A stretch of DNA of 64,000 nt from an uncultured SAR92 cluster bacterium (GCA_902527245.1 CABZOI010000007.1:1-64000), one strand, 5' to 3'. Positions 1 to 40,398 are shown, numbered from the stretch's first letter. Numbers and translations are program-made. The notes: generated by a model not told the origin, from the sequence alone.

Positions 1-3000
1 GGACCTATGACGGAACGGGACCAACGGTGGTAATTACTAGCCCAACAGTGAGTAGTGGAGATACATCTAATGATACATCGATTTCATTAACCTTTACTTT
101 TAGTGAAGCAACAATAAGATTTACTGAGGAGGACATAACCGTCAGTGGTGGGTCTGTGAGTAATTTTTCTGCAACAAGTTCAACTGTTTATACCGCAACT
201 TTTGCTCCAACTAGTGATGGGGCAACTACAATTTATGTGGAACCAGGTAGGGTTACGGATGCCTATGGCAACAATAGCTCCGCCGCTTCACAATTTAATT
301 GGACTTATGATTCGAGCGCTCCAACGCTCGCTGTTGTGACTGCTGTTGCGACGCCTGGCAATGATACAACACCAAGTTTTGTGTTTAGCAGTGATGAAGC
401 AGGGACAATTACCTCTAATGTAAATGAAGGTTTTTCAACCTCAACTTCCGCTTCTTATGGGTATAACACCATCACATTCAATACTTTAGATGATGGCACT
501 TACTCAGGGAAAACTATTACCGTGACCGATGCGGCCGGCAATGCAAATTCATTAACAATTCCTGATTTTGTAATAGAGACAGTCGCGCCCACGATGACAA
601 TTTCAAGTGCTACTGTGACCAGCGGAGACACAAGTAATGATGATTCAATCTCACTGACATTTACATCCAGTGAGGCGACTGCAAATTTTGTAGTAGGTGA
701 TGTAACGGTATCAGGCGGTTCATTAAGTAATTTTGCTGCATCTAGCACATCTGTATACACAGCAACTTTCACACCAAGCTCTGCTGGAGGGACCTCTATT
801 GATGTTGGAGCAGGTGTATTCACAGATGCGGCAGGAAACGGAAATACCGCCGCAAGTCAGTTCACTTGGACATATGATAATTCATCAGCAGAGCTGAGCA
901 ACGTAATAATATCGTCAAATAATGCGACTAGCACGTTGGCTAAAGTCGATGATGTTGTTACCTTAGCGTTCTCTGCCAATGAAACTATCAACACGCCAAC
1001 CATCTCATTTGCGTCTGGTGGTGTCTCAATTGGGGCTAATAGAGTTTCGGTATCTAATACCGCGGGAAATAATTGGTCTGCGTCGTTTACGCTTGCGTCA
1101 AGCGATACAGAGGGTGCAGTGACTTACAGCATTGCTTACTCTGACAGTAGTGGAAATGAGGGAGCTGCAGTAACAAGTGGTTCTGGAAGTGTAACCTTCG
1201 ATAAAACACGACCCGTATCCTCTATCTCTAATACTCAGGTAGGAAACGGTGGAGCTATTAACGTCGCATCCATTGCCTTTGCATTTGGATTGAGCGATTC
1301 AACGACAGAATTTAGTGCGTCAGATATTTCAGTCTCTGGAGGCACGCTAAGTAACTTCTCCGGAAGTGGAAAAGATTACTCAGCAACATTTACCTCAGAC
1401 GGTGATGGCACTAAGACGATTCAGATTGTTAGAGCTGCCTATACGGACGCTGCGGGCAATGTGAGCTGGGCAACTGGCGAGTTCAGTTTCACCTATGATG
1501 GGACGTTCCCAACGATAGATGTATCGAATATGTATTCCAAGATTATCGATGGAATGACTGATCTGGGAACGGCAACTGCCGACGAAGACGTTACTTGGTC
1601 AATATCTGGAACAGGCGTCTCTATTAGTAGCTCAGGGACTGTCACACTTGACTCTCCTGCTGATCATCTGGTTGCCGAATCTCATACATTTACGATTTCT
1701 GCTTCCGACAGTGTAGGCAATAATCGTCATGTAACCATGACGGTGGAGGTTGGCGATGTGACCGCGCCGACCATAGACTACAGTAACTTAGTTCACACAA
1801 TAGACGAAGGTGAGACTGCCTTAGGTTATGTCACCTCCTCAGAGACCGTAACTTGGTCAATTGAGGGGGCTGGGGTATCCATAAGTAGTGATGGTGTGGT
1901 GACATTAGATTCGCCAGCTAGTTATGCCGAGGCTAGCACTCACTCTTATCGTGTAACAGCAACTGATGAAGAGGGAATCTTTAGAGAAGGCTTCTTATTC
2001 ACTGTCTTTGTCAATGATACGACTGCGCCGGTGATAACACTTGTGGGTTCCGCTTCGGTCGAAAGTGAACTTGGCTATACTTACACTGATGAAGGTGCAA
2101 CAGCGGTTGATAACAAAGATGGCACAATTACCTCTGAGATAACCACGGTCAACTCAGTAGATGTAGACAATGAGGGTACCTATACCGTCACCTATGATGT
2201 TACAGATGCAGCTGGAAATGTGGCAACACAAGTTGTTCGAACTGTTACAGTCACGCCAGATGCCACGTTGCCCGTGATTTCGCTCTCTGGCGATTCTTCG
2301 GTAACTGTCGAGGCTGCAACAAGCTACACAGACGATGGAGCCTCGGCTACAGATAATATTGATGGCGATGTTTCGGCGAGTATAACCACCGTTAATAATG
2401 TTGATATCAATGTTCCAGGCACTTACGCTGTGACCTACAACGTGAGTGACTCAGCTGGGAACGCTGCGACAGAAGTAGTTAGAACCGTTAATGTTGTTGA
2501 TACGACAGCTCCTGTTATAACGCTATCTGGAGGCTCGGAGGGCACAACTGCTGAAACTCCATATTCCACTAATGATCCGGTAGGTAATGGGCCTGATGGT
2601 GAGTTAAATACTGCTGATGATGTTGTCATTAAAGATCTTTTCGCAGTGGAGGGATTAACTTTTGTAAGACCCCCTCTTGGTGGAGAAGCAGCGGCAGGCA
2701 CCTGGGGCACAGCTGCAGGTCGTGATTTAAACCGTGTGGGTACTAACCGCTACTTTAGAAAGTTTACATGGGAAAAAGCACGTGATTGGTGTGTCAGCAT
2801 TAATGCTCGATTGGCAACTGGTGCAGAGATTACATCACATATTATTCCTGTGGTAGGCCCAAGCTCCGATGGTACGTGGGAGTCTGAGCTTAATTGGCCG
2901 CAACAGGCTTCGCATTATTGGACCGGCAGCATTGCAGGCGATGATGATGGATCAGAGTCGCGTCATAAGGCCTTCATTACTTACAATACGAATAACGGCA

Positions 3001-5969
3001 ACTCAGTGCATCAGGTTCAAGGGCGAGCCAATACGACTAAGCTTTGGCCGCTCTGCGTCATAGAAACAGAAACGGCATCAGAGGGAAGTGCTTCAATAAC
3101 TCATGAGCAAGGCACAACCTATACAGATGCTGGTGCAACAGCACTAGACTCAGTCGATGGTGTCGTTGAAGTAGAAACAACCGGATCCGTGGATGATGGA
3201 ACTGCAGGAACGTACGTCCTTACATACACTGCCACGGATAATGCGGGTAATAGTGCAACCAGAGACAGAACTGTCACCGTGGCAGATACCGTTAGTCCGG
3301 TAATAACTCTAATCGGTGATGCAGCGTTAAGCTTTGAAGTCGCCCCAAGTGGAACGGTGTATGAAGATGCCGGAGCGACTGCAACTGATGGTGCTGATGG
3401 GGATATTTCAGCGAATATCACAGTCACAGGTAGTGTCGATCTCACAACAGTCGGTACTTATACTTTAACCTATTCGCTAACTGACGCCGCTGGTAACGAG
3501 GCAACTAGCGTCACACGAACCATTACGGTTACGCCAGATGTTACTGTTCCAACGATAACATTACTGGGTGATTCGGCACAGAGCTATGAGATGGGCACGG
3601 CTTATGTAGATGCTGGCGCAACTGCAGCTGACAATATAGACGGGGATATTACCTCCCAGATAGTGCTCACTATAAGTAATTCATCTGGAGCAACACTTTC
3701 ATCAGTTGATATTCTTACACCAGATACATATACCCTAACGTATTCAGTTGAGGATGCGACAGGCAATGCAGCAGTGTCTGTAATTAGAATCGTTGAAATT
3801 ACACCTGATGTGACGATACCTGTCATTACACTGGTCGGAGAGAGCCCGATAACACTGGAGCGTTACACTCCATATGTGGATGCTGGAGCGACTGCAACCG
3901 ATAACATTGACGGAGACATTACGTCGAGTATTGTGACGATCAATACAGTCGACACAACCAAAGTTGGGACATATGTTATTACTTATAACGTGAGTGATGG
4001 CTACGGAAATCCGGCAGCTGAGGTTTCTAGAACGGTTACAATTATCCCAATTGCAATTTCCTTATCGGCGCCTTCAGATATCACTGTCAACGCAACTGGT
4101 CATCTGACATATGTGGATATAGGAAGTGCTTCAGTATCAGCGGGAGAGGGTGAGGTTACAGTTTCTCCGAGTCAAATGGGTCCGTTTGAATCAGGAATGT
4201 ACGAGATAACCTGGACCGCAGAGGATAGTGTTGGAACGACAGCCGTGGCATTACAGAAGGTGAAAGTAATACCCATGGTTAACCTTGGACCAGCAATGAC
4301 AGTTACTGAGGGTAATAGTATCCAGATACCTGTCTCATTAAGTGGACATTTGGCCGATGCCTCGATGTCAGTAAATTACTCAATTACTGGCACAGCAGTT
4401 GAGACAGAGGATTATGTGAGCGCTGGTACAGCAGTGATGATTGAAGGATCTGATATGGCAGCGATGATAAATATTGATATTGTCGCAGATACTGTTGCCG
4501 AATCAGATGAAACATTGACGATCACGTTAATACCTGAATCACTCACCGGTGCCGGACCAGGCTCAACAATGGAGCAAACGATTACAATTAGCGAGCAAGA
4601 TTTGCCACCAAAAGTATCTATGCATGCGAGTCAAGCTTCAGTAATGCCAATAACTACTGTTGCAAAGGATTCCGGAATGGTTGATGTTGTTGCAAGCGCG
4701 TCTGATCCAAACTCAGGCTCTAGCTTCACTTATACATGGGGTGGTGCTTACAACACGTTACCCGGTGTTATCGACAATGGTAATACCTTGTCTTTCGATC
4801 CTTCGACTATGGATTCTGGTGTGATAAGCGTATCCGTGGAGGTCAGCGATGGAGTAAACACCACTATGGCCTCAATATTGCTTAATATTGTCACAAGTAT
4901 GCCTACGTTATCAGCTGACAATGATTCAGATGGTGATGGTGTTGATGATTTAACAGAGGGTGTTGGCGATGACGATATGGATGGAGTGCCAAATTATTTG
5001 GACAGCATAACATCCTCAAATGTCATACCGACTGCATCATCAGTAGCTCAATCTGAAGCCGGAACGTCGATATCTCTGGGCACAATTGCGCTCGGTAATG
5101 GTGATCATGATGTGTCAGTATCTGAGGCTGATGTGGCTGCGATTGATACCGCCGATGTTGGCTTTGATTACATCGAATTGAGTGATTTTGTTATCTCGGG
5201 AGCGCAGCCTGGACACTCTTATATGGTGACCATACCGTTATCGGTACCCTCAAGCTCAACCGCGACATACCGTAAGTATGTAAATGAAAATATAGGTTGG
5301 CAAATGTTTGCCGAGGATGCGAGCAACATGATTATGTCGGCTGATTCTTCAAATGGAGTTTGTCCAGCTGCAGGTAGCGATGAGTATGGGCCTGGTTGGT
5401 ACATCGGTGATGATTGTCTCCAGTTAATGATTGAAGACGGTGGGCCTAACGATGCTGATGGAGTGGCAAATGGTGTCGTGATTGATCCAAGTGGCGTTGC
5501 AGAGAAATTCATTGGAACGCCAAGCAGTAACTCATCCGCTGTGCTTGGAACGAATACTCTCGATGCAAATGGAACAGACAGCACCTCTTTGACTGTTACG
5601 GTTTTGGATGGCTCAGGCAATCCGCTGGAACATATGAGCGTTTCCGGCAGTATTGGTATATCTGGAGCAACTGTGAGTGCATTCTATGAAGAGGGTGAGG
5701 GTGTGTATTCGGCAACTGTAACAGCTGGGACTGTTGCGGGCTCTGAATCGGTGTCAATAGATATAAGTAATGGTCAGACAAGTGTAACAATTAGCTCAGA
5801 TCAGCTTACATTGAACGACGTTACTCCTGTAACTCCCGAGGAGCCTGCTACTGGCGGCGGTGGTGGCTGTTCGGTAAGCACCGACACCTCTAGTGATAAC
5901 ACTCTGATAATGATGTTATTGGCTGCAGCCTTATTGTTAATCAGGCGTCGGTATTATCAGAATCAATAG
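1..5969 (+). CDS. Giant multi-Ig-domain surface protein, 5' end outside window
   Basis: The reading frame is open from base 3 and enters from outside the window, so the N-terminus and secretion signal are not visible. About 1,988 residues are seen. Module order by base: Big_12-like Ig repeats with a VSGGxxSNF core (27-316, 590-880, 1210-1510) alternating with looser Ig domains; two cadherin-like repeats (1510-2030); DUF5011-like repeats with the core TYxDxGATAxD (2031-4045), one interrupted by a C-type-lectin-like insert (about 2620-3075); an HYR-like domain (to 4270); a Calx-beta domain (4275-4600); an Asp-rich type-3 repeat (4915-5010); a choice-of-anchor U domain (5010-5480); an invasin-like Big_1 domain (5540-5815). 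It ends in a Gly5-Cys stretch, a hydrophobic helix and RRR, a C-terminal sorting tag resembling JDVT-CTERM. Likely a surface adhesin; the ligand is unknown. The stop lies inside the convergent HMG-CoA lyase gene. Confidence 0.85.
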   Translation, partial: TYDGTGPTVVITSPTVSSGDTSNDTSISLTFTFSEATIRFTEEDITVSGGSVSNFSATSSTVYTATFAPTSDGATTIYVEPGRVTDAYGNNSSAASQFNWTYDSSAPTLAVVTAVATPGNDTTPSFVFSSDEAGTITSNVNEGFSTSTSASYGYNTITFNTLDDGTYSGKTITVTDAAGNANSLTIPDFVIETVAPTMTISSATVTSGDTSNDDSISLTFTSSEATANFVVGDVTVSGGSLSNFAASSTSVYTATFTPSSAGGTSIDVGAGVFTDAAGNGNTAASQFTWTYDNSSAELSNVIISSNNATSTLAKVDDVVTLAFSANETINTPTISFASGGVSIGANRVSVSNTAGNNWSASFTLASSDTEGAVTYSIAYSDSSGNEGAAVTSGSGSVTFDKTRPVSSISNTQVGNGGAINVASIAFAFGLSDSTTEFSASDISVSGGTLSNFSGSGKDYSATFTSDGDGTKTIQIVRAAYTDAAGNVSWATGEFSFTYDGTFPTIDVSNMYSKIIDGMTDLGTATADEDVTWSISGTGVSISSSGTVTLDSPADHLVAESHTFTISASDSVGNNRHVTMTVEVGDVTAPTIDYSNLVHTIDEGETALGYVTSSETVTWSIEGAGVSISSDGVVTLDSPASYAEASTHSYRVTATDEEGIFREGFLFTVFVNDTTAPVITLVGSASVESELGYTYTDEGATAVDNKDGTITSEITTVNSVDVDNEGTYTVTYDVTDAAGNVATQVVRTVTVTPDATLPVISLSGDSSVTVEAATSYTDDGASATDNIDGDVSASITTVNNVDINVPGTYAVTYNVSDSAGNAATEVVRTVNVVDTTAPVITLSGGSEGTTAETPYSTNDPVGNGPDGELNTADDVVIKDLFAVEGLTFVRPPLGGEAAAGTWGTAAGRDLNRVGTNRYFRKFTWEKARDWCVSINARLATGAEITSHIIPVVGPSSDGTWESELNWPQQASHYWTGSIAGDDDGSESRHKAFITYNTNNGNSVHQVQGRANTTKLWPLCVIETETASEGSASITHEQGTTYTDAGATALDSVDGVVEVETTGSVDDGTAGTYVLTYTATDNAGNSATRDRTVTVADTVSPVITLIGDAALSFEVAPSGTVYEDAGATATDGADGDISANITVTGSVDLTTVGTYTLTYSLTDAAGNEATSVTRTITVTPDVTVPTITLLGDSAQSYEMGTAYVDAGATAADNIDGDITSQIVLTISNSSGATLSSVDILTPDTYTLTYSVEDATGNAAVSVIRIVEITPDVTIPVITLVGESPITLERYTPYVDAGATATDNIDGDITSSIVTINTVDTTKVGTYVITYNVSDGYGNPAAEVSRTVTIIPIAISLSAPSDITVNATGHLTYVDIGSASVSAGEGEVTVSPSQMGPFESGMYEITWTAEDSVGTTAVALQKVKVIPMVNLGPAMTVTEGNSIQIPVSLSGHLADASMSVNYSITGTAVETEDYVSAGTAVMIEGSDMAAMINIDIVADTVAESDETLTITLIPESLTGAGPGSTMEQTITISEQDLPPKVSMHASQASVMPITTVAKDSGMVDVVASASDPNSGSSFTYTWGGAYNTLPGVIDNGNTLSFDPSTMDSGVISVSVEVSDGVNTTMASILLNIVTSMPTLSADNDSDGDGVDDLTEGVGDDDMDGVPNYLDSITSSNVIPTASSVAQSEAGTSISLGTIALGNGDHDVSVSEADVAAIDTADVGFDYIELSDFVISGAQPGHSYMVTIPLSVPSSSTATYRKYVNENIGWQMFAEDASNMIMSADSSNGVCPAAGSDEYGPGWYIGDDCLQLMIEDGGPNDADGVANGVVIDPSGVAEKFIGTPSSNSSAVLGTNTLDANGTDSTSLTVTVLDGSGNPLEHMSVSGSIGISGATVSAFYEEGEGVYSATVTAGTVAGSESVSIDISNGQTSVTISSDQLTLNDVTPVTPEEPATGGGGGCSVSTDTSSDNTLIMMLLAAALLLIRRRYYQNQ

Positions 5970-32319: not shown

Positions 32320-32406
32320 GCCCGGGTGGCGAAATTGGTAGACGCAAGGGACTTAAAATCCCTCGGTGGCAACACCGTGCCGGTTCAAGTCCGGCCCCGG
32401 GCACCA
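32320..32406 (+). tRNA. tRNA-Leu (anticodon UAA)
   Basis: 87 bases with encoded CCA (32404-32406). The acceptor stem pairs GCCCGGG with CCCGGGC, the anticodon loop is CTTAAAA, giving UAA, and a long variable arm is present. It corresponds to leuZ downstream of cysT in E. coli. The next coding region starts only nine bases after its CCA. Confidence 0.98.
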
Positions 32407-32415
32407 TCAAAGAAA

Positions 32416-34152
32416 ATGAAACAAGTACACTATTTAGTTTTATCTCTCTCTGTGTGTGTAATGATAAGTACATATGGTTCAGACCAGAGCTTGTCTCTCA
32501 GCGAGGTCTTTGACATCATCGCTCAGTCAAAAAAGATTGAAGAACCATTATTCGCAGAGATCTCTGATCTGAGAGACGACAGCAGATCTTCCGTTGATGA
32601 ATTAAGTTTTAATATTTTAATTGAGCCCAAGAAATATTTTGATGACTCAACTAAAAGAAAGTCGTTAGGCCAGAGTGATGAGCAGAAATTAAAATCACAG
32701 ATACTCGCAGTGATTGAAAAATCTGAAAATGTCCAGGTTGTGAGAACATTCAAATCGATTAATATGATTGCGGCAGTTTCGAATTTGAAAGGTATCAGTG
32801 AACTTTCCAAGTTAGAATCCACTGCATACATTGGTCAAGACGTTGGTGGAGAGGGTGGTTTGAATGAGGCATTACCTCAGATTAATGTTGATCAAGTTTA
32901 CTCGGAGTATGGTCTTACGGGTAAGGATATTCATATTGCTGTCTTGGACACTGGAATTGATACGGATCATGCTGACTTATCTGATTCTGTTGAGTCACAA
33001 GTCTGCTTTGCTGATTTTTGTCCAAATGGTGCGGATAATGCTGAGGATGACAACGGTCATGGAACTCATGTCTCGGGGATAATTAGTTCAGCAGGAATTT
33101 CATCTTCGGCAGGTGTAGCGCGTAATACCCGAATCCACGCTATTAAAGTCCTTGATAGCTCAAATGGTTTTAGTTCTTCATCCATAATTATCGAGGCACT
33201 TGATCATATCATTAATAATTTACCTCAAGTTAATCTCGTAAATATGAGTTTAGGTACTTTTGACAGATTCGAATCGTTTTGTGATCAACAAAATATATAC
33301 ACGCGAGCATTTGCAACTGCCATAAACACTTTGCGTGACAGGGGAACTTTAAGTTTTGTCGCATCGATGAATAATGCGTCATCCAATTCAATCTCAGCGC
33401 CGGCATGCATATCCAATGCCATCAGCGTTGGTGCGGTATGGGACAGTAACCCTTCATCATTCAGTGGCTCATGTTTTGAATCTAATCCTGTGGCTGATGA
33501 AATGGCGTGTTTCAGCAATTCGAGTGTTGCTCTTGACATTCTTGCTCCGGGAAGCCCCATTCGAGCAGCTCGAATGAACGGTGGATCAGTAAATTACTCA
33601 GGAACATCAATGGCAACTCCCATGGGTGTTGGCTGCGCAGCTTTGTTAATGGAGCGATCTAATAATTTAACGGCGAATCAGATTGAGTCCTTACTTAAAA
33701 ATAGCACAGAAGTGTATCGCTCAGATCCTCTGGGACGTGAATTTCCTAGAATCGATTGCCTAGCCTCAATTGAGGCAATTCCAAACCCAGCTGAACCGTT
33801 AACTAATCTAGATATAGATGGAAATAGTCGCTTCGATGCATTATCGGATGGACTGATTCTTCTCAGGTTAATGTTTGGTTTAACTGGTCAATCGTTGACT
33901 AACGGTGTTACAGCACCTGACGCAAACTTTGTCTATTCAGGTGATCTAATCCAGAGATTTGATTCAACTGGTTTACTTCTTGATATCGATGATGATAAGT
34001 CAATCGATGCGCTTACTGATGGCTTAATGATCCTTCGATATTTATTTGGTATTCGAGGAGAAAGCTTGAGTTCGAATGCATTATCCTCCAATGCCGAGAG
34101 GACAGCGACTAGTGAGTTGGAAGGATATTTACAAACCTTAATTAATCAGTAG
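32416..34152 (+). CDS. Secreted subtilisin-like (S8) protease with C-terminal dockerin-like pair
   Basis: 578 residues. A signal peptide (about residues 1-22) and an I9-like propeptide region precede the S8 catalytic domain. The triad is Asp178 (AVLDTGIDTDHADL), His215 (NGHGTHVSG) and Ser398 (SGTSMATPMG). From base 33805 the C-terminus carries two EF-hand-like repeats (LDIDGNSRFDALSDG, LDIDDDKSIDALTDG, each followed by an LxRxxFGxxG helix), spaced by about 30 residues. The start is taken at 32416; reading further upstream would translate tRNA-Leu. The leader would be only nine bases if the tRNA is excised. It probably degrades proteins outside the cell. Confidence 0.88.
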   Translation: MKQVHYLVLSLSVCVMISTYGSDQSLSLSEVFDIIAQSKKIEEPLFAEISDLRDDSRSSVDELSFNILIEPKKYFDDSTKRKSLGQSDEQKLKSQILAVIEKSENVQVVRTFKSINMIAAVSNLKGISELSKLESTAYIGQDVGGEGGLNEALPQINVDQVYSEYGLTGKDIHIAVLDTGIDTDHADLSDSVESQVCFADFCPNGADNAEDDNGHGTHVSGIISSAGISSSAGVARNTRIHAIKVLDSSNGFSSSSIIIEALDHIINNLPQVNLVNMSLGTFDRFESFCDQQNIYTRAFATAINTLRDRGTLSFVASMNNASSNSISAPACISNAISVGAVWDSNPSSFSGSCFESNPVADEMACFSNSSVALDILAPGSPIRAARMNGGSVNYSGTSMATPMGVGCAALLMERSNNLTANQIESLLKNSTEVYRSDPLGREFPRIDCLASIEAIPNPAEPLTNLDIDGNSRFDALSDGLILLRLMFGLTGQSLTNGVTAPDANFVYSGDLIQRFDSTGLLLDIDDDKSIDALTDGLMILRYLFGIRGESLSSNALSSNAERTATSELEGYLQTLINQ

Positions 34153-34163
34153 CTAGAGCAATT

Positions 34164-34751
34164 CTATTTTTTAATCGCTTCGACACCAATCCTGAGAGCA
34201 ACCTCCATTTTGAAGCCTAACCTTTTTGCATAGTCAACTCCAAAATCGTCTCTCATGATGTTTCCGTACGCGTCTGCGCCACAAACTTGCTTGAGTTTGA
34301 ATGGGTGAAGTCTACATTTGAATGACTTTATATCGAGATCAACAGGTTTAGTCACTCCGTGAAGTGTTAAGTTTCCTTTCACCTTGGTTGGCGCACCATC
34401 AATAAAGTCAGTGAGATTTCCTTTATATACTGCTTCTGGATATTTCTCTACGTCAAACATATCAGAGTTTTTGGCATGCTTGTTCATACCTTCATGCCCA
34501 AAATCTATTGTAGACATATCCATAATTACATTTACAGAACCAGTCTCTTTGTCTTTATCTAGAACAATTTCACCAGAAGTCGAGTTAATTTTTCCGCGCC
34601 AAAGTGATAATCCACCCATGTGATCTGCTTCGAAAGCTGGAAAGGTGTGGCTTGAATCAATTTCGTACGTTATTGGCTTAGCTTGAGTAAAAGAAATACA
34701 AAAGGGGCTAAGTAAAACCAATGAGATAAGTATAGAGAGATTCTTTTTCAT
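34164..34751 (-). CDS. YceI family periplasmic protein
   Basis: 195 residues. A Sec signal peptide (MKKNLSILISLVLLSPFCIS, cleavage near QAKP) precedes a YceI lipocalin-like barrel with the family segments YEIDSSHTFPAFEADHMGG, FDVEKYPEAVYKG and LTLHGVTKPVDL. Members bind isoprenoid or quinone-like lipids in the periplasm; the ligand here is unknown. It is convergent with the subtilase (11 bases between stops) and divergent from the dockerin-esterase. Confidence 0.9.
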   Translation of the reverse strand: MKKNLSILISLVLLSPFCISFTQAKPITYEIDSSHTFPAFEADHMGGLSLWRGKINSTSGEIVLDKDKETGSVNVIMDMSTIDFGHEGMNKHAKNSDMFDVEKYPEAVYKGNLTDFIDGAPTKVKGNLTLHGVTKPVDLDIKSFKCRLHPFKLKQVCGADAYGNIMRDDFGVDYAKRLGFKMEVALRIGVEAIKK

Positions 34752-34865
34752 GATATTTACCCGAAGAAATTTGCAATGTGTTTTAATACGGCATCAAGGT
34801 CAGAGTAGTTCTAACCTATAAAGTGCGATTTTCATTTTAACAATAATTAAATCTTAAAGTGTTAC

Positions 34866-36134
34866 ATGTTTATGAGAAATATCACGTTATTTCTTTTTTG
34901 GTGGTCTCTATTTTTTTCCATCTCAACCTCAAGCGCAGATAATGAAATCAATTTAGATATTGATGAAAATGGCGAGTATGACGCACTTTCCGATGGTCTA
35001 CTGATTATCAGATATTTATTTGGTCTCACGGGTGATGATTTAGTTTCAGGTATTCTAGGATCAAACTCATTAGTGGTTGAATCTATAGAGATAAAATCTA
35101 AACTTGATTCAATGCGATCCCATCTTGATGTTGATGAAAACGGATCAGTGGATGCATTGACTGATGGTCTTTTGATTCTCCGATATTTATTTGGTTTGCG
35201 CGGCGATTCTTTAGTGACACAAGTTATAGGCACAGGTGCCGCAAGAAATTCTTCAGAGAGTATTGAAGATTATGTAAAAAGCATAATGCCTAGCATTACT
35301 TTGATTGAGGGAAATCAAGGCTCTGGCGTATTCTCTTTCAGGAATTCTCAAGTGATAAATGGCCAAACAATTAATGTATTTTGTCACATTCCAGACAGTC
35401 TAAATTCATCAACGCCAATATTATTCGTGTTTCATGGAGGTGGTCGAAATGCATCAGATTATCGAAATGCTTTTGTCGAGGATGCTGATGAGAAAGGATT
35501 CATCGTAATCGCTCCTGAATTTTCTTCATCATTGTTTCCAGGAGGTGATGGATATAATTTAGGCAATGTTTTTGTCGATGGAGATAATCCAACCTCATCA
35601 TCTTTAAATGATGAATCAGAATGGCTTTTTTCTGTTATTGAGCCTCTTTATGATTTTGTAAAAGTAAGATTGGAAAATACAACGTCGAGTTATTCAATTT
35701 TTGGTTTTTCTGCTGGCGGTCAAGTAACCCATAGAATGTTATTTTTTAAACCCAATGCTCGCGTGGGCCATTATATTTCCTCTGGATCGGGTTGGTATAC
35801 GACAATGAACAGTGATTTATCTTTTCCATATGGATTTAAAAATAGTCCACTAGAAAATTCCAACTTTGAATCTCATTTAGGACAAAAGATGACAATTTTA
35901 ATCGGTGATCAAGATAATGATCCTAATGCAGCAAGTTTACGACGAAATAATATTGTTGATCAGCAAGGTCGAAATCGATTTGACAGGGCAGTGTATTTCT
36001 TTGAACAGGCACAAGACATAGCCGAGGAGCTTCAGTCAGAGTTTAATTGGAGTTTTGAGATTCTTGAGAATACAGCGCATGATTACGTTGCTGCCTCCAG
36101 GCGCGCTGCTGAAATCCTATTTACAGACGATTAA
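34866..36134 (+). CDS. Secreted esterase (alpha/beta hydrolase) with N-terminal dockerin-like pair
   Basis: 422 residues. A signal peptide ending near STSSA is followed directly by two EF-hand-like repeats (LDIDENGEYDALSDG and LDVDENGSVDALTDG) at about 34945-35285, the same pair as at the C-terminus of the subtilase. The alpha/beta hydrolase domain has an oxyanion strand LFVFHGGGRNASDY, nucleophile GFSAGG, and a candidate catalytic His in ENTAHDY. The fold resembles PHB-depolymerase/feruloyl-esterase (LpqC-like) proteins. The substrate cannot be read from sequence. Start could be the ATG at 34866 or the one two codons later; no ribosome-binding site decides. Confidence 0.82.
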   Translation: MFMRNITLFLFWWSLFFSISTSSADNEINLDIDENGEYDALSDGLLIIRYLFGLTGDDLVSGILGSNSLVVESIEIKSKLDSMRSHLDVDENGSVDALTDGLLILRYLFGLRGDSLVTQVIGTGAARNSSESIEDYVKSIMPSITLIEGNQGSGVFSFRNSQVINGQTINVFCHIPDSLNSSTPILFVFHGGGRNASDYRNAFVEDADEKGFIVIAPEFSSSLFPGGDGYNLGNVFVDGDNPTSSSLNDESEWLFSVIEPLYDFVKVRLENTTSSYSIFGFSAGGQVTHRMLFFKPNARVGHYISSGSGWYTTMNSDLSFPYGFKNSPLENSNFESHLGQKMTILIGDQDNDPNAASLRRNNIVDQQGRNRFDRAVYFFEQAQDIAEELQSEFNWSFEILENTAHDYVAASRRAAEILFTDD

Positions 36135-38730: not shown

Positions 38731-38847
38731 GTTTATGTTCTCCAATTTTATATTATCGGCAATTCTTCATGCCTGTTTATAGAATGTCATAGTAATGAAA
38801 AGTATACTAAAGATCATTGACCCGTATTATTAATCACCCTTTTTTTG

Positions 38848-40398
38848 ATGGAGCGTAGATTGTTTAAAAAATTGTCAATAATTTTGTTTTCACTGCTCTT
38901 GATAAATTGCGGTGGGGGAGGTGGTGGCGCTGACTCGCCAACTCCTGCTCCAGAGCCCACAACGGCACCCCAACCTGCACCACCTCCAAGTATGAATAGT
39001 GTGTCTTTTCTTAGTTCTAATAACAATAGTTTAGATAATGATGTTTCTTTAGTGATAGAGGAAGATCTCATTACAGGAAGAATAACTTCTAATGCAAGAG
39101 TAGATAACCTTATTGCGACATATGATTATGAGGGAGTTAGTGTAAAAATTGATGGTGTGACTCAGCAAAGTGGAATTTCTGAGAATGATTTTACTCAAGT
39201 AACTACACTTTTGGTTGAAAATGCTGATGGTGATACTCGTTCTTATCAACTTGATTTAACTAAATTTACGGGATTACCCATAGTTTATTTGACGACCGAA
39301 AACAATGTTGAAGTTGAATCAAAAGAGGACTATATCAATGGTACTGTTGAAATTGATGGTGGTCGTTTTTTTGATGATATGCCAGTTTCTGAGATCAGAA
39401 TTAGGGGTCGAGGTAACTCCACATGGTTTTTGCATCCAAAAAAACCCTACCAAATAAGGTTTGAAGAAAAAACTGAATTTTTAGGGATGATTGAGGATAA
39501 ACGGTGGTTGTTTCTTGCTGAATATTCCGATAAAACTCTTTTGAGAAACAAGACCGTTTTTGAGATGGGTTATATCTCAAACTTTGATTACACAACTCAA
39601 GGCGTTTATGCAGAGGTCTACCTTAATGGGCTGTACAACGGAACATACAATATAACTCAAAAAGTTGAAGAGAGTAATAATCGCGTTGCAGTGGGTGATG
39701 AGGGTTATCTTCTGGAAATCGATCAAGATTGGCGTCTTGATGATGATGATGTTTTCTTTTACACAGATCAGTTTTTGGTGAATGTGAAAGAGCCAGCGAT
39801 TGCTTACGATACGCCCGAATACGACTATATACGAGAATACATAAATCAATTTGAGGATGCTTTATTCGGCGAGTTATTTACAAGCGATAACTTTGGATAC
39901 AAAAACTACATCGATGTGCCAAGTTGGATAGATTGGTTTATTATCAACGAAATTGTGAAAAATGTTGATTCTCGAAATTTTGCAAGCATATTTTTCAGCG
40001 TTATTCCCGGTGAGAAAATTAAAAAAGGCCCATTGTGGGATTTTGATTTATCTTTCGGTAATACGGATTATGCGGATAGTCAATACTCTGACGGTTGGTG
40101 GGTCAAGTATAATCCATGGTATGAAAGGTTATTTGAAGATCCTGAATTTGTTCAGCTAGTTAAAGATAGATTCTCTTATTATAAGCAAAATCAGCAGTTT
40201 ATTCTGGATAAGGTGGATGACTTTGCCGCACATTTAGTTTGGGCTCAGGTGGAAAACAATAACAAGTGGCAGACGATGGGGCAGTATGTTTGGCCAAATG
40301 CAGTGGTGCTTGAAACATACGAGGAGGAGGTTATCCATCTCAAAAATTGGTACATCGAAAGAATGGATTGGTTAGAGACCGCCCTGGACGATCTCTAA
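38848..40398 (+). CDS. CotH-like (secreted kinase fold) lipoprotein
   Basis: 516 residues. The signal peptide ends at LLLINC, a lipobox, followed by a Gly6 run and a Pro/Ala/Thr linker. A small beta domain comes next, then the CotH domain (about residues 170-480): IRGRGNSTWFLHPKKPYQIRF, DKTLLRNKTVFEMG, GYLLEIDQD, and WDFDLSFGNTDY, whose DFD resembles the kinase metal-binding motif. CotH of Bacillus is an atypical protein kinase; bacterial lipoprotein members are common but poorly studied. Divergent from the ADP-ribosylglycohydrolase operon across 117 bases. Start is the ATG at 38848; a TTG immediately before it is less likely. Confidence 0.85.
   Translation: MERRLFKKLSIILFSLLLINCGGGGGGADSPTPAPEPTTAPQPAPPPSMNSVSFLSSNNNSLDNDVSLVIEEDLITGRITSNARVDNLIATYDYEGVSVKIDGVTQQSGISENDFTQVTTLLVENADGDTRSYQLDLTKFTGLPIVYLTTENNVEVESKEDYINGTVEIDGGRFFDDMPVSEIRIRGRGNSTWFLHPKKPYQIRFEEKTEFLGMIEDKRWLFLAEYSDKTLLRNKTVFEMGYISNFDYTTQGVYAEVYLNGLYNGTYNITQKVEESNNRVAVGDEGYLLEIDQDWRLDDDDVFFYTDQFLVNVKEPAIAYDTPEYDYIREYINQFEDALFGELFTSDNFGYKNYIDVPSWIDWFIINEIVKNVDSRNFASIFFSVIPGEKIKKGPLWDFDLSFGNTDYADSQYSDGWWVKYNPWYERLFEDPEFVQLVKDRFSYYKQNQQFILDKVDDFAAHLVWAQVENNNKWQTMGQYVWPNAVVLETYEEEVIHLKNWYIERMDWLETALDDL

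Follow-up and report, generated by a model that had tools for sequence, protein, structure and literature searches.

We lean towards the view that SAR92-type gammaproteobacteria run an undescribed cellulosome-like assembly. Its plug would be a 57-residue-repeat module borne by proteases, sulfatases, esterases and polysaccharide-active proteins, and its socket a divergent cohesin-like domain on Ig-array proteins that would be installed by the JDVT-CTERM/MrtJ system. The central step, in which secreted hydrolases dock via the module to cohesin-like surface anchors, is quite likely in our judgement, and we infer the binding itself. According to the initial annotation, the module may serve in non-cellulosomal docking or calcium folding and tether different hydrolases to one shared surface partner. 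The docking option is the best reading of the co-occurrence, the gene linkage, the cohesin-like domain of relatives and the homology of an open reading frame (ORF) in the window, although the assembly of this strain yielded no cohesin-like domain of its own.

Anatomy of the two-unit module

The window comprises the opening 64,000 nucleotides of contig C7 in the genome assembly G000 (1.9 Mb, 34 contigs, 94% complete). The features relevant to the module are as follows:

32320-32406: tRNA-Leu, overlapping the longest mechanical start of the subtilase ORF
32416-34152, + strand: subtilase (S8) with a signal peptide and the module at the extreme C-terminus (PF00082, E 1.7e-41)
33799-33969, + strand: unit R1 of the subtilase module, 57 aa (repeat alignment without gaps)
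33970-34140, + strand: unit R2 of the subtilase module, 57 aa, with the stop 3 residues on (repeat alignment without gaps)
34866-36134, + strand: secreted alpha/beta-hydrolase (PHB-depolymerase/esterase-like) with an N-terminal module (TIGR01840 and NF050058, both below cut-off)
34944-35114, + strand: unit R1 of the esterase module, 57 aa, with the signal peptide immediately before it (gap-free alignment; AF2 model)
35115-35285, + strand: unit R2 of the esterase module, 57 aa (gap-free alignment; AF2 model)

The subtilase was taken to start at about 32416. The alternative, longer ORF opens with a GTG at 32326, which falls within the tRNA-Leu gene and is therefore probably not the true start. 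Two EF-hand-like pairs, one in the subtilase C-terminus and one in the esterase N-terminus, had been described initially, and both were present, with the common motifs quoted correctly. The spacers and amphipathic tails, described initially as alike in the two proteins, were not separate parts; they formed one element of a 57-residue unit. The module is thus a tandem of such units, which aligned with each other without gaps. The AF2 model of the esterase module had a mean pLDDT of 95.6 and a pTM of 0.88. Each unit is predicted to consist of one 13-residue EF-hand-type Ca2+ loop followed by three helices, and both units are predicted to pack as one small domain.

Close to both module genes, the window also encodes a CotH-kinase lipoprotein (38845-40398, + strand). 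In other genomes, large cohesin-module proteins (L068, L074, L088 and L151) end in a CotH part to which the window protein was 56-60% identical, so that there the CotH part and the cohesin-module part are fused in one chain.

Distribution and conservation of the module

The module had been noted in two proteins. Both cases were confirmed, but the module was not confined to them, and a profile search located it at 11 places in the 1.9 Mb genome. Besides the window subtilase and esterase, the carriers in G000 included a sulfatase-YHYH protein, an FG-GAP protein, two reprolysin-type metalloproteases, a head-like-repeat protein with a single unit, two beta-helix/lectin-like proteins and one protein without a Pfam match. 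One carrier, at 167 aa, was scarcely more than a signal peptide and the module. The module was retained in the esterase ortholog of G011 (52% identity), where it was again N-terminal, and in a related subtilase in L051 (49% identity).

Across the collected loci of public genomes and the relatives, the profile search recovered 131 distinct carriers, and exactly two units were found in 123 of them. The register in these two-unit carriers was 57 residues in 89 cases and 56 residues in 25. By a simple test, the module lay at most 20 aa from the stop in 72/131 carriers and directly after the signal-peptide core in 33/131; other placements included modules set off from the signal peptide by a longer linker, and modules preceded by a TSP3 stretch or by a cohesin-like domain. 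A role as a C-terminal sorting signal was rejected, because N-terminal modules were common too. Secreted enzymes and other surface proteins bear the module mostly at a chain end, where a partner could reach it and leave the catalytic domain unperturbed. Gene clustering around the carriers, analysed before the cohesin profile existed, reflected mostly housekeeping synteny.

Within the 123 pairs, loop positions D1, D3, N/D5, D9 and D13, the following Gly and the Arg of the first helix varied little or not at all in either repeat. The Asp at position 13 was invariant in both repeats, and position 12 was Thr/Ser in about 95% or more. The earlier observation that the Ca loop is one residue longer than the dockerin I loop therefore holds family-wide. 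The predicted 13-residue loop would bind Ca2+.

The two repeats could be told apart: leave-one-out classification assigned 233/246 repeats (95%) to the correct R1 or R2 class. Several of the misclassified repeats came from outside SAR92, for example from a Prochloraceae cyanobacterium in which R1 and R2 were alike. The separability of the classes indicated that the module pair in SAR92 is inherited as an ordered unit, in agreement with the initial proposal that the unit moved as a whole pair.

Comparison with type I dockerins

Type I dockerins contain two 12-residue Ca loops in repeats of about 22 residues. The module resembled the type I dockerins of clostridial cellulosomes (PF00404) in its two repeats of a Ca loop plus helix, in its terminal position on secreted enzymes and in a sub-threshold sequence similarity. 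It differed in its 13-residue loop, compared with 12 in the dockerin, in its 57-residue repeat with two extra helices, and in the non-equivalence of its repeats. We give almost no credence to the reading of the module as an ordinary cellulosomal dockerin of type I. Sub-threshold Dockerin_1 similarity in 32/75 members and a dockerin as the top match of the PDB sequence search (E 0.02-0.06) pointed towards it. The window esterase, however, scored 19 and 17 bits against PF00404, under the gathering cut-off of 22.9 bits, the window modules as a whole stayed below that cut-off with a period of 57 residues, and no match above it was found anywhere in the G000 genome. The refuting outcome foreseen for the initial proposal, assignment to ordinary dockerin I, thus did not arise. 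The carriers (proteases, sulfatase, esterase and beta-helix proteins) likewise argued against a cellulosomal dockerin, and no Pfam cohesin was detected in the G000 assembly, in which the candidate anchor gene is cut off at a contig end.

The profile search of PDB sequences gave marginal dockerin and calmodulin matches only, and the fold search of the module alone against the PDB gave no meaningful match (best dockerin, E 6.5). The module is not a Pfam dockerin I, from which it departs in the lengths of its loop and repeat, in its Pfam score and in its fold match. It probably works like a dockerin.

A divergent cohesin-like domain in module-bearing genomes

No cohesin had been seen in the window. 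The custom cohesin-like profiles and Pfam likewise detected no cohesin-like domain in the whole G000 assembly (34 contigs, 94% complete), but profiles did reveal a divergent one in module-bearing relatives. With the Pfam profile PF00963 (gathering cut-off 24.1 bits), matches above cut-off were found in 3/33 module-bearing genomes (G428, G429 and G433). Cohesin-like proteins scored 30.4 and 24.7 bits, and other copies fell below the cut-off. Such matches lay directly N-terminal of the module in L149, L151, L154 and L155, and they also occurred in module-free lipoproteins in L149 (358 aa) and L150 (745 aa).

Custom profiles (A3 and A4) were built for this domain of about 145 residues. They detected it in 4/58 relatives, and all 4 were among the 8 module-positive ones. 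In the order sample, the domain was present in 4/10 module-positive and 1/382 module-negative genomes (both 4, module only 6, cohesin only 1, neither 381; Fisher 1.1e-6, a value that ignores shared ancestry and so overstates independence). In a wider set, which overlaps the order sample in one genome (G276), the domain was found in 19/39 module-positive genomes, among them those of a cyanobacterium and a Burkholderiales MAG; many of these 39 genomes fed sequences into the custom profile, and more weight therefore falls on the distant taxa. Some genomes contained 10-12 cohesin-like copies. In G444 (L222:2-8365), a 2788-aa protein carried four cohesin-like domains and no module, an arrangement that is scaffoldin-like. 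As a separate observation, the Prochloraceae cyanobacterium MAG (L033, L037, L226 and L227) contained both the module and the cohesin-like domain; its module repeats were nearly alike, and one of its cohesin-like proteins had RTX-type GGxGxD repeats.

For a tandem of cohesin-like domain and module that occurs naturally, the AF2 model had a pLDDT of 93.4 and a pTM of 0.78. When this model was compared with the PDB, the 18 best matches were all cohesin or cohesin-dockerin entries, with E down to 1.3e-8. The partner domain is thus predicted to adopt the cohesin jelly-roll fold, which, together with the scores above cut-off in several proteins, would place it with the cohesins (PF00963). It differs from them in its strong divergence (about 10-19% identical to the structures that matched best) and in often being present once per protein, at the N-terminus of Ig-array surface proteins.

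Profiles detected no cohesin-like domain in the near-complete module-positive genomes G011, G036, G376 and G378. An anchor gene cut off at a contig end was looked for in G036 and none was found. Such genomes would also be expected if the module bound another ligand, such as a surface polysaccharide or the module itself, and the cohesin-like domain had a different role on the same proteins; the difference between R1 and R2 would permit R1-R2 self-association. We regard this alternative as distinctly improbable, since the module and the cohesin-like domain co-occur and their genes are linked, and since, where these two folds are found together, the established case is a cohesin that binds a pair of EF-hand repeats. 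Docking to the cohesin-like domain is the reading followed below.

Probable anchoring of the cohesin-like proteins

Among module-free cohesin-like proteins with both ends visible, a common plan was a signal peptide, an N-terminal cohesin-like domain, an Ig/HYR-type array and a C-terminal sorting signal. We found that six cohesin-bearing proteins (L168, L170, L171, L172, L157 and L091) had JDVT-CTERM as this signal, with scores that reached or exceeded the NCBIfam cut-off (NF033191, 27 bits), and that the Burkholderiales cohesin-like protein ended in IPTL-CTERM, not JDVT-CTERM. Rhombosortase (TIGR03902) with GlyGly-CTERM was dropped as an explanation of the anchor, the signal being JDVT-CTERM; TIGR03902 gave sub-cut-off matches even in control genomes.

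The mrtJ gene adjoined the cohesin gene in L157, L170, L171, L091 and L099, and in all of these except L157 a module gene lay in the same cluster. A cohesin-JDVT-CTERM gene, mrtJ and a module gene stood together in L170, L171 and L091. MrtJ (NF033192, cut-off 75 bits) scored above cut-off in 8/9 module-positive and 0/8 module-negative genomes of the same family (Fisher 4e-4, with ancestry shared). In G000, MrtJ reached 100 bits (G000:C1:194375-194656); it was on a different contig from its JDVT-CTERM target, so the two-gene neighbourhood of MrtJ and target seen in L157, L170, L171 and L091 was not found in G000. The mrtJ match of G011 (G011:C50:4013-4285) contained an in-frame TGA, which suggests that the system may be decaying in that genome; G011 had three modules, and profiles found no cohesin-like domain in it.

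In the excerpts of PMC11980579, JDVT-CTERM and MrtJ form a two-gene neighbourhood that turns up sporadically among beta- and gammaproteobacteria and is akin to the myxosortase system, which sorts proteins to the cell surface. The present loci resembled those two-gene loci in combining a signal above cut-off with an adjacent MrtJ. They differed in the cohesin-like domain of the sorted protein and in the module gene that is often part of the locus, whereas cohesins are unmentioned in these excerpts.

The first ORF of the window is a candidate anchor of this type:

3-5969, + strand: Ig-array surface protein with the N-terminus cut by the contig end and a C-terminal JDVT-CTERM (NF033191, 42.2 bits; Pfam Ig-like arrays)
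5853-5954, + strand: JDVT-CTERM surface-sorting signal of this protein (NF033191, 42.2 bits, cut-off 27)

It was compared with a cohesin-bearing 2289-aa protein of G001, a genome of the same genus. The two proteins shared 71% identity over 179 aa and, near the C-terminus, 39% identity over 515 aa. The 71% block matched the G001 stretch just behind the cohesin-like domain, and in the first ORF the array extended for at least 844 residues ahead of this block, up to the contig end. Judging from this homology, the missing N-terminus may carry a cohesin-like domain in this strain.

The invariant Ca ligands, the mostly terminal position and the 11 module copies of G000 without a detected cohesin-like domain would also fit a module that acts as a Ca-dependent folding or stability cap for the ends of secreted proteins in seawater; it would need no partner, and the cohesin-like domain would be a common surface beta-sandwich. 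We consider this unlikely. The cohesin-like domain was almost confined to module-bearing genomes, its genes were linked to module genes and mrtJ, and its best fold matches were cohesins.

Proposed docking and its implications

In the docking model, the dockerin-like module would bind directly to the cohesin-like domain at the cell surface. The socket is a putative divergent cohesin-like beta-sandwich, clearest at the N-terminus of long Ig-array proteins ending in JDVT-CTERM; MrtJ, an intramembrane protease, would presumably assist in the lipidation of these proteins and in their sorting to the surface. Elsewhere the putative socket is found on lipoproteins or multi-cohesin proteins. The docking model explains the terminal placement, the varied carriers, the co-occurrence, the fold and the linkage together. 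Counted against it were the lack of a detected cohesin-like domain in G000 and in several near-complete module-positive genomes, and a module fold with no convincing match among solved dockerins. In addition, the cohesin-like domain directly adjoined the module in one chain in many carriers, where it could be a structural companion rather than an intermolecular partner.

A related case is Saccharophagus degradans, also a marine gammaproteobacterium with dockerin-like and cohesin-like ORFs. According to the excerpts of PMC2386152, it has two dockerin-like and six distant cohesin-like ORFs, with binding proposed as future work; compared by description only, those excerpts differ from the present case in describing no module family, anchor or gene linkage. 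No dockerin literature mentioning SAR92 was found in the open-licence literature, and the open-licence papers that combined dockerin, cohesin and CTERM concerned, judging by title and abstract, methane-oxidising archaea and monoderm secretomes. If the docking model holds, aerobic marine bacteria with a part in the turnover of algal organic matter keep degradative enzymes on the cell through a cohesin-dockerin-like system, so that the released products would stay near the producer. Such assemblies, familiar chiefly from anaerobic cellulose degraders, would then have a wider range. JDVT-CTERM proteins and MrtJ would gain a plausible function, and protein engineering would gain new plug-and-socket pairs.

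Stand-alone and single-unit module proteins

Two minor groups of module proteins were also observed. A stand-alone protein consisting only of a signal peptide and a module with a degenerate first repeat was encoded at G000:C2 132750-133085 (L023:5589-6089). The same protein was conserved in G002:C46 (L224:6351-6812), and its gene neighbourhoods in G000 and G002 were similar. Proteins with a single N-terminal unit formed a subfamily, with members in L171, L172, L099 and at 14.6 kb of G000:C8. Single-unit proteins adjoined the cohesin gene in G012, G029 and L099, and mrtJ sat between the single-unit gene and the cohesin gene in L171 and L099.
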